Positions 59,187 through 64,000 of a stretch of 64,000 nucleotides of DNA are shown here, one piece after another; position 1 is the first letter of the stretch; every line of letters starts with the position of its first letter. Origin of the DNA: Comamonadaceae bacterium (GTDB lineage Bacteria; Pseudomonadota; Gammaproteobacteria; Burkholderiales; Burkholderiaceae_C); the NCBI GenBank assembly GCA_947456305.1, contig CANGPN010000006.1, positions 62,001 through 126,000 of the forward strand, read 5' to 3'. The notes beneath the pieces are model-generated. The model was given only the letters and a program-made list of their open reading frames with translations. It searched no databases and had not been told where the DNA came from. A program made the translations under genes and the position numbers.

Positions 59187-60572
59187 TTACTCAATGAGCT
59201 TGAATCCTACTGCAGTGACAAAACCGATCAATGTTGAAAATCCAGCCATATTGGGGGTGGACAAATGGGCGGCTTCAGGGAGCATCGCTGAACCTATCAT
59301 GGTGAGCATGGCACCAGCTGCTATACCCTCCACCACCACCATAGCCGAGTGAGGAATAGATTCACCGACATAAGCGCCAAAAGCTGCACCGACTGCACAA
59401 ATCACGGTCAATGTGGCCCATAACAAAATGATTTTGCTTTTGGAAAAACCTTGTTGCTTCATATTGACGCTGGCAGACAAAGCCTCAGGAAAGTTTGAGA
59501 GAAATAAAGCGCCTACCAGTGTCAATGGCATGACATCAAAAAAAGACAGCGGCAAGCCAGTTGCTGCTTTGGTTGTTACCAATGACAGCATGACCGTGCC
59601 AATCACAAAGCTCTCAGGAATCACATCCAGCAAATTGCCCAGCCAGATGGCCATACCTGCGTTACTGTGCTCTTCTTTCATACTGTTCAAATCGCTGGCG
59701 CTGGGGATTTCAGTCCCGCCGGTGCGCAATGCGTCAATCGCCAAGTTTGCCCATTTCTGTTTGGCAACTGCAGCCTGGTCCAAGTGGCGTTGATTCTCCA
59801 AAATACGCTCAGAGGCCAAATCACGGACGGTGACTGCAAAATCAGGATGAAGTTTTGCAAAGTATTCATATTGCGCTTTGTGCAGTACCAGCAATTCAGC
59901 CGCACCGTGTTCAGCAACAGCAGTGGTGGTATGGGATTGCCGGGCAAGAAAGGACACTTCGCCAAGCAAATCACCGCGTTCTGCCGTCCTTGAACTTCCG
60001 TCGGTGTGTGTCAGGGTCAGGCTACCGGCGCGAACTACATAAAGTTCGTTTGAATCGTCGCCTGCGTTGAACAATGTCTCGCCCTGGACAATGAATTTGG
60101 GATGCAGCATTTTGAGTAGTTCATTCATTAGCTCAGGCGACATGCTGCTGAAAAAAGAAGAATTACCGATGGACTGCATCAATTCAGCCCTGCGTTTGTT
60201 TTTGTTTTTAGCATGCTGCGCAATCACATAAGCGCCTTTTCGTAAATAACCGCCATGGCTGCTGAGTAGCTGGTCAAGCACGATGAAAATAATACCGCCG
60301 CCAATCAATGACACCAGCAATGTGATGAAGTGGTGAACCTCGACGCTGCGGTCTGCCATATCTGCGTGAGCCAAGGCCTCTACGGTAGGCGATACCAGTT
60401 CTATGGCTAACGCAGAGATCAAAGCACCTGCACCAAAGCCGCAGAGTGCGCCAACGGTGGCGTTTGACATCGGTGTACTAAGACCGACGATAGCGCCCAG
60501 AATCATGGAGCCGGCGGCAATTGCACCCAAAATAGCCGCCCATATCAGCAATGTATTTCCCAGATCGCCCAT
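59187..60572 (-). CDS. ZIP-like metal transporter with inserted cyclic-nucleotide-binding-like domain
   Basis: A 461-residue protein in three parts. Residues 1-110 have three membrane segments. Residues about 133-255 form a CNB-type domain (SPELMNELLKML..., ELYVVRAGSLTLTH, GDLLGEVSFLARQSHTTTAVA). Residues about 305-461 have five more membrane segments with the ZIP-like motif GNLLDVIPESFVIG and EGIAAGAMLTMIGSAMLPEA. The phosphate-binding Arg of true CNB domains is replaced (SHTTTA), so nucleotide binding is doubtful. It ends 8 bp before ureD on the same strand. Confidence 0.75.
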   Translation of the reverse strand: MGDLGNTLLIWAAILGAIAAGSMILGAIVGLSTPMSNATVGALCGFGAGALISALAIELVSPTVEALAHADMADRSVEVHHFITLLVSLIGGGIIFIVLDQLLSSHGGYLRKGAYVIAQHAKNKNKRRAELMQSIGNSSFFSSMSPELMNELLKMLHPKFIVQGETLFNAGDDSNELYVVRAGSLTLTHTDGSSRTAERGDLLGEVSFLARQSHTTTAVAEHGAAELLVLHKAQYEYFAKLHPDFAVTVRDLASERILENQRHLDQAAVAKQKWANLAIDALRTGGTEIPSASDLNSMKEEHSNAGMAIWLGNLLDVIPESFVIGTVMLSLVTTKAATGLPLSFFDVMPLTLVGALFLSNFPEALSASVNMKQQGFSKSKIILLWATLTVICAVGAAFGAYVGESIPHSAMVVVEGIAAGAMLTMIGSAMLPEAAHLSTPNMAGFSTLIGFVTAVGFKLIE

Positions 60573-60647: not shown

Positions 60648-61595
60648 TCAAGAGGGTTCTTGGTCCAGATTTTTTTCTTGCCGCACTTGCGCGGCAATCG
60701 CTTCAACCTGCTCGTCTGACATACCGTATTTAGCTTGCATATTTTTCAAGTGAGCTGCTTCCTCTTCAGTCACGACGCCATCTGCCAATACTTCACGGAT
60801 TTCCATTTCATACATGGCTTCGCGGCGACTGACTTGGGTGGTGTAAGCGGTAGACACCACACCGGTCAAAATGGCTGCCAATGCTATGGCCAGTATTTGA
60901 GTAACGATGACAAGAATCACCCCGGGGAAAGTGACTGGATCGACGTTACCCCATCCTGAAATGATGGTGATGACAAACCAATGCATGGCAGCTGGAATGG
61001 AGGGAAACACCTCAGGCTGATCGTGGCCTTCGATGATGTAGATCAGTGATGAAAACAATAAACCGCTGATTAACAATAAAAACAAGGCTGATGAAAATGA
61101 ATCTCTCTCTGATTTGATAGCCTCGAACATATCGTCCATGGCGCTGTTGTAGCGAGACAATTTAAAGATACGCAACAAGCGGAACATGCGAAGAACGCGT
61201 AAGTCTGTGCCGGGTAATAGCAATTGCAGGTAAAAGGGCACGGTGCTGAAAAAATCAACCAGACCGAAGAAGCTGAAGATGTAGCTTTTGCGGCCTTCCC
61301 AGGCGCTGCCGCCTTCGGCAACCAATTTTTGGGCGTAAGACCAGACGCGAAGTACATATTCAATAGAAAAGATGCCGACACTGAACAAATCAAAATAATG
61401 AAAATAGTGTCCCCACTCCTCATGTATGTCAGGTACGGACTCCAAAATAATGGCCACTACATTCAGTACCACCAGCAAGGCAATGAATATTTCACAGAAC
61501 CGGCTTGCCGGTTCACTGACATCGCCTTCTAGTATGCGGAAAACACGCGATTGAATGCGTTGATAAGCGGATTGGGGAACAGTAGAGCTAGCCAT
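60648..61595 (-). CDS. Voltage-gated ion channel paralogue A (SGWGN filter)
   Basis: A 315-residue six-helix channel. S1 is at about 33-52, the S2 Glu in FSIEYVLRVW, S3 in FGLVDFFSTVPFYL, and S4 in DLRVLRMFRLLRIFKLSR (131-148). The pore loop reads ITIISGWGNVDPVT, with W215 where K channels have Tyr and N217 in place of Asp. The C-terminal DGVVTEEEAAHLKNMQAKYGMSDEQV is a TerB/EF-like helical segment shared with the next two genes. It overlaps channel B by one base (TAATG). Ion selectivity cannot be assigned to K+ with confidence. Confidence 0.85.
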   Translation of the reverse strand: MASSTVPQSAYQRIQSRVFRILEGDVSEPASRFCEIFIALLVVLNVVAIILESVPDIHEEWGHYFHYFDLFSVGIFSIEYVLRVWSYAQKLVAEGGSAWEGRKSYIFSFFGLVDFFSTVPFYLQLLLPGTDLRVLRMFRLLRIFKLSRYNSAMDDMFEAIKSERDSFSSALFLLLISGLLFSSLIYIIEGHDQPEVFPSIPAAMHWFVITIISGWGNVDPVTFPGVILVIVTQILAIALAAILTGVVSTAYTTQVSRREAMYEMEIREVLADGVVTEEEAAHLKNMQAKYGMSDEQVEAIAAQVRQEKNLDQEPS

Positions 61596-62614
61596 TATTT
61601 CAATTTACCTTGAGCCTGATCCAACATGGTCTGGACTTCTTTATCACTTAAACGGAATTGCGCTTGTAAGCGTTTGAGCGTTTCGCGCTCGGCATCGGTC
61701 ACTACACCATCTGCCAGCACATGAAGCAATTGCGCTTTGTAGGCGGATTTTTTACGAGATAACTGGTTTGAAAAGGCCGAGGCCACGATACCCGTCATGA
61801 TCGCCGCCATACAAACACCGAGAAAACCTGTGAGTAATGCGACGATTTCACCGCCCTTAGTCACCGGTTCAATATTGCCGTAGCCTGAGGTAATAGTCAC
61901 AATCGCCCAGTAAATGGCGTGAGGTATGGTGCCGAACTGTTCAGGCTGGGCATGACCTTCCGCAAAGTGCATCAAAGATGCTGAAACTATGGTGGCAATC
62001 AGTAGCAAGAATGCGGCGGAGCCAAAAGCTCTTCGCTCAGAATACACTGCAGAAAACAAATCTTGCAGTGCAGAGTTGTATTTCGAGAGTTTTAAAATAC
62101 GCAACAAACGCAGCACGCGCAAAATGCGCAAATCCAGTGTTGGAAAAAACACATGCATGTAGTAAGGCATGGTGGCGAAGAAGTCCACCAGGCCGAACGG
62201 GCTGAAGATGTAACCGCGTCTGCCTTTCCAGGCGCTGTCTGAAAATTTCGCACCAAGTGACCAGACACGCAAAATATATTCAAGCGTGAAAAACATCACA
62301 CTCCAAAATTCAAGTTCGTGAAAAAAATCTTTGAATTCAGCGTGCACCTCAGGCACAGAATCCAATATCACAGCTGAACAGTTCACGAGAACAACAACGG
62401 TGATTAGCCATTCACAATATTTAGATAAAAACTGATCCGGAGAACCATCAAGAATTTCCATGACAGTTTGACGCAGACCGGGCTTGGCTATAACAGTTTC
62501 ATTCATAACAGTAGAAGAGACGGAGATGGGGGCGGCAGTCTGCAAAGCCTCCCCGCACTGGTGGCAAAAGAGATGGTCTGACGGGTTGTCAGACTGGCAC
62601 ACTGGGCAATTCAT
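61595..62614 (-). CDS. Voltage-gated ion channel paralogue B with zinc ribbon (SGYGN filter)
   Basis: A 339-residue channel. The N terminus is a zinc ribbon (C3, C6, C17, C20: CPVC...CHQC). Voltage sensor: LEYILRVW (S2), GLVDFFATMPYYM (S3), DLRILRVLRLLRILKLSK (S4, 161-178). The pore loop is VTITSGYGNIEPVT (S243 to N247), without the usual TVGYGD. The C-terminal DGVVTDAERETLKRLQAQFRLSDKEV resembles paralogue A. Starts 8 bp after channel C, so the three are co-transcribed. Confidence 0.85.
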   Translation of the reverse strand: MNCPVCQSDNPSDHLFCHQCGEALQTAAPISVSSTVMNETVIAKPGLRQTVMEILDGSPDQFLSKYCEWLITVVVLVNCSAVILDSVPEVHAEFKDFFHELEFWSVMFFTLEYILRVWSLGAKFSDSAWKGRRGYIFSPFGLVDFFATMPYYMHVFFPTLDLRILRVLRLLRILKLSKYNSALQDLFSAVYSERRAFGSAAFLLLIATIVSASLMHFAEGHAQPEQFGTIPHAIYWAIVTITSGYGNIEPVTKGGEIVALLTGFLGVCMAAIMTGIVASAFSNQLSRKKSAYKAQLLHVLADGVVTDAERETLKRLQAQFRLSDKEVQTMLDQAQGKLK

Positions 62615-62621
62615 GCAAGAC

Positions 62622-64000
62622 TTAAGCGCCGGATTTCCTTGATTGAAGTTGTTGCCAGAGCGCTAATTCTGATGGAGACAGTCGCTCGGATTCCCGTGCC
62701 GAAGCTTCAAATTTCGCTGTGTCAGTCATCAAGGCTAACTGGTGAATTTGGCCCACCAAGTTTTTGTAGTGCTCAACGGCTAATTCAGGTTTTTCAGCGA
62801 TTAAATGGATTGGCAAGGAGTTAATTTTGCTTTTCTCGTTTTCCTGCTCTTGGATAATGGTCTCGAGTAAAGAGTTAATTTCCTCAATCGTCAAATGCAA
62901 GCGCTTTGCTTCTTGCCTGATAACAGAGATTTCTTCTTCACTTAAATGTCCGTCTTTTAACATCACCAATAAATTGGCTTTAAGCGCATTACGCTCTTTT
63001 ACCAATTGATCGCTGAAGGCCGAGGACAGCAAAGCCGCTGGAATCGCAAAAATACCGATACCAATCAGCGCCAGCACAATGGTCATTGCACGTCCCACCG
63101 GCGTGACAGGAGAAATATCTCCATAACCCACAGAAGCCAAGGTGATCACAGCCCAGTAAAAAGCAGTGGGAATATTTTCAAATTTGTCCGGCTGTGCTTC
63201 GTGTTCAAACAAATAACCCAGGCTGGCAGTCAACACAAGCAACAGCATCATGATGAATGCAGAGGCGCTCATCACCGGCCATTCGCGAACCAGCACTTTG
63301 CCCAAAATAGCGGTCGCATCACTGTGGCGAGTCAGTTTGAGCAAACGCGCCAGTCGGAATACCCGCAGGAAACGCAAATCAAACACATGGGACAACACGA
63401 CTTCCAAGAAGAAGGGCATGATGGCTAACAGATCAATCACCGTGGCAGGTGTGGAAGCTTGTTTGATACGACCGGCAATCGCTTGTTTGAATCCCGGCTC
63501 TTCCACGCAAGCGTAAATACGCATGCAATATTCCACACTGAAAATGGCCACTGCCAATGCATCCAGTATGGCGAACTCCACGTTGATCACGTAGCTGATG
63601 GAATGCACCGACTCCAGCACCACGGCCAGCACGGAAATGATCACCCAGATGCCGATGAAGGTATCAAAAATCGTTTGCATGGTGCCGCCGTAAGCACTGG
63701 GGAACACCAGCGCATGGATACGCTGGCGGAATGTACGGCCACGGTTGAGTTCAGAAAATTCTTTGATCGCGGGAATGACAATGCGAAACAGTTTCAAGAT
63801 TCGCAGCAGTCGCAAGAACCGCAAGGCGCGCAAATCCACTGGAATGAAGGATTGCAAGAAGAAGGGTGCAACTGCCAGAAAGTCGATGATGGCGAACGGG
63901 CTAAAAATGTAAGCCAAGCGAGGCATTTTGCGTTTGTTGAATTCCAAATCTTCCGGGGCCAGGTAAAGCCTCATCAAATATTCAATCACGAAGACCGTGA
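62622..64000 (-). CDS. Voltage-gated ion channel paralogue C, two voltage-sensor modules (5' cut by window)
   Basis: The frame is open to the window edge, so the N terminus is missing. The visible part starts inside S2 of a first voltage sensor (VFVIEYLMRLYLAP, S4 DLRALRFLRLLRILKLFR at 52-69). A second complete sensor follows (S1 about 107-126, FSVEYCMRIYA, S4 DLRFLRVFRLARLLKLTR at 204-221), then one pore with a canonical filter TLASVGYGD (283-291). The C-terminal helices (MLKDGHLSEEEISVIRQEAKRL) match paralogues A and B. No pore lies between the two sensors. Residue numbers count from the first codon after 63990. Confidence 0.85.
   Translation of the reverse strand, partial: TVFVIEYLMRLYLAPEDLEFNKRKMPRLAYIFSPFAIIDFLAVAPFFLQSFIPVDLRALRFLRLLRILKLFRIVIPAIKEFSELNRGRTFRQRIHALVFPSAYGGTMQTIFDTFIGIWVIISVLAVVLESVHSISYVINVEFAILDALAVAIFSVEYCMRIYACVEEPGFKQAIAGRIKQASTPATVIDLLAIMPFFLEVVLSHVFDLRFLRVFRLARLLKLTRHSDATAILGKVLVREWPVMSASAFIMMLLLVLTASLGYLFEHEAQPDKFENIPTAFYWAVITLASVGYGDISPVTPVGRAMTIVLALIGIGIFAIPAALLSSAFSDQLVKERNALKANLLVMLKDGHLSEEEISVIRQEAKRLHLTIEEINSLLETIIQEQENEKSKINSLPIHLIAEKPELAVEHYKNLVGQIHQLALMTDTAKFEASARESERLSPSELALWQQLQSRKSGA

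Follow-up and report, generated by a model that had tools for sequence, protein, structure and literature searches.

Three consecutive genes for voltage-gated channels lie on the minus strand near the end of a 64,000-nucleotide stretch of DNA from a Comamonadaceae bacterium (hereafter the window; G000:C6:62001-126000), and their selectivity filters read SVGYGD, TSGYGN and ISGWGN. What do three such genes, here called A, B and C, do side by side? The original prediction for this locus placed the genes and read the filters correctly, and proposed that three paralogues with a common S1-S6 layout act as a heteromeric channel or as specialised subunits that differ in selectivity. The common layout does not hold, as A carries a second, N-terminal voltage-sensing domain (VSD) and runs beyond the end of the window, and the filters of B and C have lost one residue. 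Taking these features together with gene order, we lean, if only narrowly, towards two linked channel systems: a K+ channel formed by A with the product of its upstream neighbor P5, and a separate cation channel formed by B and C.

Two voltage sensors and one pore in gene A

The protein encoded by A is laid out as VSD1, linker, VSD2, single pore and cytosolic tail. Pfam Ion_trans matched it in two stretches (153 bits), and profiles built separately for VSD1, VSD2 and the pore from 42 A proteins placed them at residues 57-177, 207-327 and 332-435 of the open frame. These 42 were aligned out of 52 dereplicated proteins (72 extracted); one of the ten omitted was truncated and the rest were longer or similar. 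The same profiles recovered the order VSD1-VSD2-pore in 80/80 named-contig loci, which are the best 80 of 157 relatives and include a few genes clipped by contig ends.

Both sensors retain the residues that a working voltage sensor uses. In the numbering of the L090 protein these are E99, D132, R150, R153, R156, R159, K162 and R165 in VSD1, and E249, D282, R302, R305, R308, R311 and K314 in VSD2, all of them invariant in 42/42 A proteins. Across a wider set of tandem channels that includes paralogues (118 distinct sequences, less four whose VSD1 match fell short of a threshold of 110 of 118 residues), each of these positions (Glu in S2, Asp in S3, Arg/Lys in S4) was conserved in either sensor in 114/114, except that VSD1 R165 was present in 113, with Ser in L075. 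The median pairwise ratio of nonsynonymous to synonymous substitution (dN/dS) among tandem channels was 0.156; this and the other dN/dS values given below are simple Nei-Gojobori counts, with medians taken over non-independent pairs. Filters from 103 distinct pores read SVGYGD (99) or SIGYGD (4). A thus has what is expected of a voltage-gated K+ channel, namely S1-S4 with S4 charges followed by S5-P-S6 and a T/S-x-G-Y-G-D filter at normal spacing. To our knowledge, channels of the voltage-gated superfamily have one voltage sensor per pore module. Judged by its sequence, A is a member of this superfamily that breaks the rule, with two sensors for one pore.

Structural comparison located the channel of known type in the second part of the protein. 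An AlphaFold model of the whole A chain as a monomer (mean predicted local distance difference test, or pLDDT, 78.7) aligned with Kv4.2 over residues 179-429 (Z 15.9, 5.6 Å over 229 residues). Because alignment of the whole chain to PDB structures covered mainly residues 178-488, we modeled VSD1 alone (mean pLDDT 83.0), and this model resembled the Kv4.2 sensor in 7uk5_A (Z 14.0, 2.3 Å over 118 residues) and 7e84_A (Z 14.4, 6.7 Å over 139 residues). The VSD1 profile also recovered voltage sensors from the PDB, the best being 4bgn_A (E 2.8e-10). Compared with six-transmembrane Kv channels, of which Kv4.2, the Kv1.2-2.1 chimera and KCNQ2 are the nearest structures, A shares VSD2, the S4-S5 connection, the pore and SVGYGD, but has a further complete VSD in front of the channel. 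Of 313 PDB sequences, the best 60 matched A from residue 184 onward only, and among 50 structures aligned to the A model, 7ej1_B spanned residues 5-441 whereas the other 49 began at residue 176 or later. Two-pore channels (TPC) and four-domain channels also place several VSDs on one polypeptide, but they have one pore module for each VSD.

We suggest that four copies of A would form one K+-selective pore surrounded by four VSD2 and four outer VSD1 domains, with the VSD1 ring joined to the channel by the cytosolic linker, and that the effect of the outer sensors would be a shifted or sharper response to voltage. It is also possible, though we think it less likely than not, that VSD1 has no role in gating the K+ pore and instead serves structure or localisation, or forms a path for protons as in Hv1. 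VSD1 has no pore attached, and voltage sensors can act alone, as in Hv1; the gating-charge and charge-transfer positions of VSD1, however, are conserved in 113 or 114 of the 114 tandem channels, even where VSD1 is down to 46% identity with the first sequence, which argues against such a role.

Within the genus, A-type matches of at least 58% identity occurred in 61/73 genomes (62 places, two of them partial), and paralogous tandem channels of 43-53% identity were also present. Farther out they were rare. Profile searches of 369 class and 398 phylum genomes, sets that both contain the window's genome and that overlap each other and the order sample, found full-length tandem matches in just two genomes, the window's own and G840, from the same order. 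The class and phylum loci (L170-L228, n=59) comprised 2 tandem and 57 single-VSD channels; loci were available for the best matches only, and long frames lacking a locus (e.g. G394, G781 and G703) were judged by their match range. Titles of the named contigs were mostly Comamonadaceae or Burkholderiales metagenome-assembled genomes (MAGs), Limnohabitans, Polynucleobacter and Ramlibacter included; a small number of MAG labels were unexpected (Thermoflexus, for example). Three records without a MAG label have the tandem layout: NZ_NESK01000041 (Limnohabitans sp. 2KL-17), NZ_NERW01000002 (Limnohabitans sp. T6-20) and NZ_JACVPY010000002 (Polynucleobacter sp. UB-Piko-W3).

The VSD1 sequences formed one clade (support 0.978) in a 161-sensor tree, and this clade joined the sensors of B, C and four single channels (0.957). 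VSD2 fell among single-VSD channels, and its nearest three sensors included those of the same-genus loci L083 and L078 (0.986). VSD1 was 45% identical to the C sensor (96 bits) and 34% identical to VSD2 (72 bits). Because VSD1 and VSD2 belong to different tree groups, A looks like a fusion; the simplest reading is that it gained its second complete sensor when a B/C-type sensor was fused onto the front of a complete channel. Single-VSD channels from the same genus (L083:5359-6627, L078:5219-6433 and L084:5585-6781) have the A linker and no VSD1, and frames of the L083/L078 type with this linker encode 399-423 residues. It is possible that they represent a pre-fusion form or a secondary loss.

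A shortened filter in B and C

The filters of B and C had been described as diverged by substitution. The substitutions are there, but the register differs as well, since B and C have one residue deleted before GYG. Counted between the Trp of the pore helix and the first GxG glycine, the spacing is 9 in 105/105 tandem channels, and 8 in 41/41 B proteins (38 by script, three by eye) and in 39/39 C proteins. The script skipped three B and one single-VSD channel in which Pro is missing from its usual place downstream of the filter; by eye these gave 8, 8, 8 and 9. Sixty of 61 single-VSD relatives also showed 9, and the remaining one, L218, measured 10 by the Trp anchor and a normal 15 by an Ile-Pro anchor. 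We also searched 229 class and 249 phylum genomes with a B/C profile, recovering some genes that overlap with the first spacing set. Among the 60 channels at these loci together with L076 and L204, 57 had a spacing of 9 and the window's B and C had 8 (L289, read at the wrong place, was not counted). Those 57 single-VSD relatives have GYG followed by Asp, or by Glu in one (L270). Single-VSD proteobacterial channels such as L076, L275 and L246, the closest to B and C in the pore tree and by profile, thus share their one-VSD core but have one more filter residue. Independently, a phmmer alignment sets the gap in B against the Val of TTVGYGD in Kv1.2-2.1, and neither B nor C shows the TxGYG signature at normal spacing. 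A plain D-to-N substitution as the main change in the filter was rejected, as the deletion is also present.

Filter sequences varied little within each family. B filters (n=36) were TSGYGN (32), TAGYGN (3) and TSGYGH (1), and channels with TSGFGN (3) or TSGNGN (2), first sorted with the single-VSD channels, have B-type flanks. The TSGNGN filter occurs in the B orthologues L054 and L053, where Asn stands at the place of Tyr and the sequence past the filter is changed as well. C filters (n=38) were ISGWGN (29), VSGWGN (6), IAGWGN (2) and VAGWGG (1), with Trp in 38/38. Because the pores of B and C form one clade (0.994) adjoining channels with normal filters, the one-residue deletion most likely happened once, before B and C split; their ancestor would have been a normal TTxGYGD channel that lost one P-loop residue and then duplicated.

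B and C are under purifying selection (median pairwise dN/dS 0.073 and 0.104). The reading frames of A, B and C are all unbroken in the window's genome and dN/dS is low, and we therefore rejected the possibility of pseudogenes at this locus, raised with the original prediction. Ion_trans scored B and C at 108.8 and 96.7 bits (cut-off 25), and the S4 Arg/Lys residues were invariant in 18 sequences. A TerB/EF-like tail in all three proteins had also been proposed. The C-terminal tails are visibly similar, but Pfam gave only a sub-threshold TerB match, in B alone (E 0.056, 14.2 versus 24.4 bits), and no EF-hand model was among the Pfam matches listed. An N-terminal CxxC...CxxC motif in B (DZR zinc ribbon, 23.6 bits versus a cut-off of 27.3) was present in only 6/36 B sequences, so that a zinc ribbon was rejected as a defining part of B.

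How would such a filter behave? Loss of Asp after GYG had been called unusual, but hERG/EAG-type channels and the first filters of K2P channels have Asn or His at this place, and losing Asp alone therefore need not remove selectivity. NaK (TVGDGN) resembles B and C in having Asn after the filter, and the TSGNGN of some B is a further likeness. The filters of NaK and HCN channels keep the normal spacing, however, whereas that of B and C is shortened. Deletion within the Shaker filter reportedly abolished K+ selectivity. According to passages of one article (PMC9822992), TxGYG makes four ion sites and goes with K+ selectivity, NaK has two sites and is non-selective, and the HCN1 filter has two sites only, HCN channels having significant Na+ permeability. 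A one-residue deletion in human SK2 appears in a portion of another article (PMC12484442) that does not place it in the filter, and we did not use it as a parallel. Among the open-licence papers listed by our searches, none described tandem VSDs, comparable odd filters or a filter shorter by one residue. We suggest that B and C most likely pair up as subunits of one voltage-gated cation channel, in which the number of K+ sites would be below four and K+ selectivity weak or absent. By sequence, they are members of the voltage-gated superfamily that break its filter spacing.

Gene order and subunit assembly

The gene directly upstream of A on the same strand encodes P5, a protein of 229 residues from its called TTG start, or 204 from Met26, which is nearly invariant and probably the true start. 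P5 contains a single hydrophobic helix, and four of its cysteines (C104, C138, C166 and C215) are invariant. BLAST found it in this position at 69/80 named-contig loci, with at least two clipped by contig ends; a P5 profile added L157, giving 70/80, and six others have less than 400 nucleotides upstream. No ORF (open reading frame) matched the P5 profile beside 57 single-VSD loci with flanks of about 1.5 kb, and among 200 genomes of the order P5 matched in the window's genome only. A Pfam search with 34 members gave no family at E 0.01, and no PDB match was better than E 0.16. Given this neighborhood, P5 is most likely a putative auxiliary subunit of A, which we picture with its one helix and an extracytoplasmic domain of the disulphide type. 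With its single hydrophobic helix, its invariant cysteines and its position beside the channel gene, P5 is comparable to the one-helix auxiliary subunits KCNE and Nav beta; it differs in its lack of a Pfam family or good PDB match.

To see which genes travel together, we counted gene order across the genus, where A was found at 62 places, B at 49 and C at 50. B lies just upstream of C at 47/50 C places. The three without an intact B are G045, which starts at contig base 10, G028, with C on another contig, and G001, in which fragments of B flank an assembly gap. Many genomes of the genus share the order A-B-C, and 47 of the 49 genomes with C have a strong A-type match (E <1e-100; G060 has a fragment only and G044 a weak match). 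Yet B follows A at only 43/62 A places (contig ends not separated), and B lacks an adjoining A at 6/49 places, of which at least G046 and G060 are near a contig end and G052 shows no A in 5.3 kb read upstream. Among the 80 named-contig loci, B follows A in 17; the sequence stops less than 1 kb past A in ten, and in the other 53 at least 1 kb lies beyond A without a B. Of the 17 with B, 13 also have C and three end within 2 nucleotides past B. We conclude from these counts that P5-A is the wide unit and B-C an addition to it. A fixed A-B-C trio was rejected, with 19/62 A places and 53/80 loci lacking B. Of the proposed set of partner subunits, then, the B-C part stands, as the two genes are retained and linked in a manner that fits partner subunits, whereas the trio as basic unit does not, since A often occurs without B.

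Several observations weigh against two linked but separate systems with a working VSD1. A lies directly upstream of B at 43/49 B places in the genus, which would be compatible with mixing of A, B and C. At L159, B occurs without C although 1377 nucleotides remain after B, so that B is not strictly dependent on C. P5 was not found by BLAST and one profile upstream of A in L127, L144, L147 and L165 (4/74 loci with enough DNA), or beside the paralogous tandem channels that adjoin sodium-type channel genes. The AlphaFold model has pLDDT below 50 at the A filter (382-388) and is of a monomer, leaving VSD1 placement and assembly to inference. VSD1 could be a structural relic. Three A-type copies have one stop within the match (G006:C9:389774-391411, G017:C20:49219-50781 and G053:C91:6171-6950), possibly through decay or assembly errors. 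Finally, the trees are midpoint-rooted and built from short domains, with several deeper nodes poorly supported.

Two other arrangements of the subunits deserve consideration. B and C may be electrically silent regulators whose short filter does not conduct and which tune A or other tandem channels, much as Kv5, Kv6, Kv8 and Kv9 are silent regulatory subunits for Kv2. The invariant deletion, the non-standard filter residues and the low dN/dS would suit such a role, as would the strong A-type match in nearly all C-bearing genomes of the genus; but S6 and the P-loop of B are strongly conserved, as in a working pore, and B and C are linked more tightly to each other than to A, and we regard this as doubtful. 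We consider it unlikely that A, B and C co-assemble, with A giving the K+ filter and tandem sensors and B and C modifying selectivity. The frequent placement of A before B and the likeness of the tails and S6 ends are consistent with such a heteromer. Against it stand the many A genes without an adjoining B in both samples and the occurrence of B-C without an adjoining A, clearest in G052; a single ring would also have to combine the shorter P-loop with one of normal length. An error of assembly or sequencing as the origin of the tandem ORF or of the deletion, a concern as most sources are MAGs, is refuted for practical purposes by the layout in 80/80 loci, including three records without a MAG label, and by the presence of the deletion in 80 B and C sequences, all distinct (three by eye).

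The locus and its relatives

Features of the locus are collected in the table below. The called start of A is TTG, with an ATG at codon 3, and 2 nucleotides separate it from the end of P5. The stop of B and start of C have one base in common (TAATG), as had been predicted, but the gap between A and B is 7 nucleotides rather than the 8 reported. This spacing suggests that A, B and C are co-transcribed. A consensus scan gave 6 promoter-like sites, versus 8.9 in shuffles, and 15 terminator-like sites, versus 9.3. NCBIfam gave no match above its cut-off for proteins P0001-P0005.

Table. Coordinates of the channel genes, their domains and neighboring genes, in window positions except where a locus is named.
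Feature	Position	Strand	Remarks
Gene C	60648-61595	-	315 aa; one VSD and pore
Gene C filter ISGWGN	60945..60962	-	one-residue deletion; Trp at the place of Tyr
Gene B	61595-62614	-	339 aa; one VSD and pore
Gene B filter TSGYGN	61874..61891	-	one residue below K+ channel signature length
Gene A, part in window	62622..64000	-	residues about 95-553 of 553
Gene A, whole	L007:4623-6284 = window 62622 to 64283 (extrapolated)	-	553 aa
Gene A VSD1 (extra N-terminal sensor), part in window	63743..64000	-	start outside window; by profile, conserved Glu/Asp/Arg/Lys and model
Gene A VSD2 (pore-attached sensor)	63300..63674	-	by profile and conserved residues
Gene A pore domain S5-P-S6	62979..63290	-	by Pfam Ion_trans and pore profile
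Gene A filter SVGYGD	63117..63134	-	normal length, by spacing count
P5	L007:6287-6976 = window 64286-64975 (extrapolated)	-	wholly outside window; directly upstream of A
ZIP-like transporter with inserted cyclic-nucleotide-binding domain	59187..60572	-	downstream of C; by Pfam

Downstream of C, the ZIP-like protein matched Pfam Zip at 33.9 bits, slightly below the cut-off of 35.1, and its cyclic-nucleotide-binding domain sits mid-protein. This gene follows C in 7/101 loci searched, two of the seven being from one genome, and the gene beyond it resembles what we take to be ureD. At L070:9978-10790, two small genes (70 and 190 residues) lie between C and the next channel gene, and such a pair follows C in six loci searched (L070, L071, L072, L088, L089 and L096).

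Other channel genes accompany these. The window's genome also encodes a lone sodium-type channel with the filter TLEGWS (L008:2922-3746, G000:C10) and a further TTTGYGD channel (L009:3093-4124, G000:C1). Elsewhere, two tandem-sensor genes occur consecutively with overlapping frames (L073:2547-5803 in G019 and L082:602-3825 in G050), the first with SVGYGD and the second with SIGYGD or SVGYGD. A sodium-type channel gene overlaps, or lies within about 50 nucleotides of, a paralogous tandem-sensor gene in G049 (L070:10753-13262), G033, G009, G041 and G052 (L075, with a sodium-type channel gene on both sides). Its filter reads TLESWADGI in G049 and G033, and an ATGA overlap was read in G049, where the pair follows A-B-C and brings five voltage-gated channel genes into about 7 kb.

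Tentatively, then, freshwater Burkholderiales may possess a K+ channel with eight working sensors and a one-helix beta subunit, linked in one genus to a two-subunit, short-filter channel of weak selectivity, and the clusters with sodium-type genes may be excitability modules. A naturally occurring subunit with two sensors and intact gating charges would let the number of sensors per pore, and the coupling of a second ring, be tested. B and C, with a K+-type filter less one residue maintained under purifying selection, offer a natural probe of the number of ion sites required for K+ selectivity. Tests of A may be possible without metagenome material, since tandem channels are present in Limnohabitans and Polynucleobacter records that bear no MAG label.

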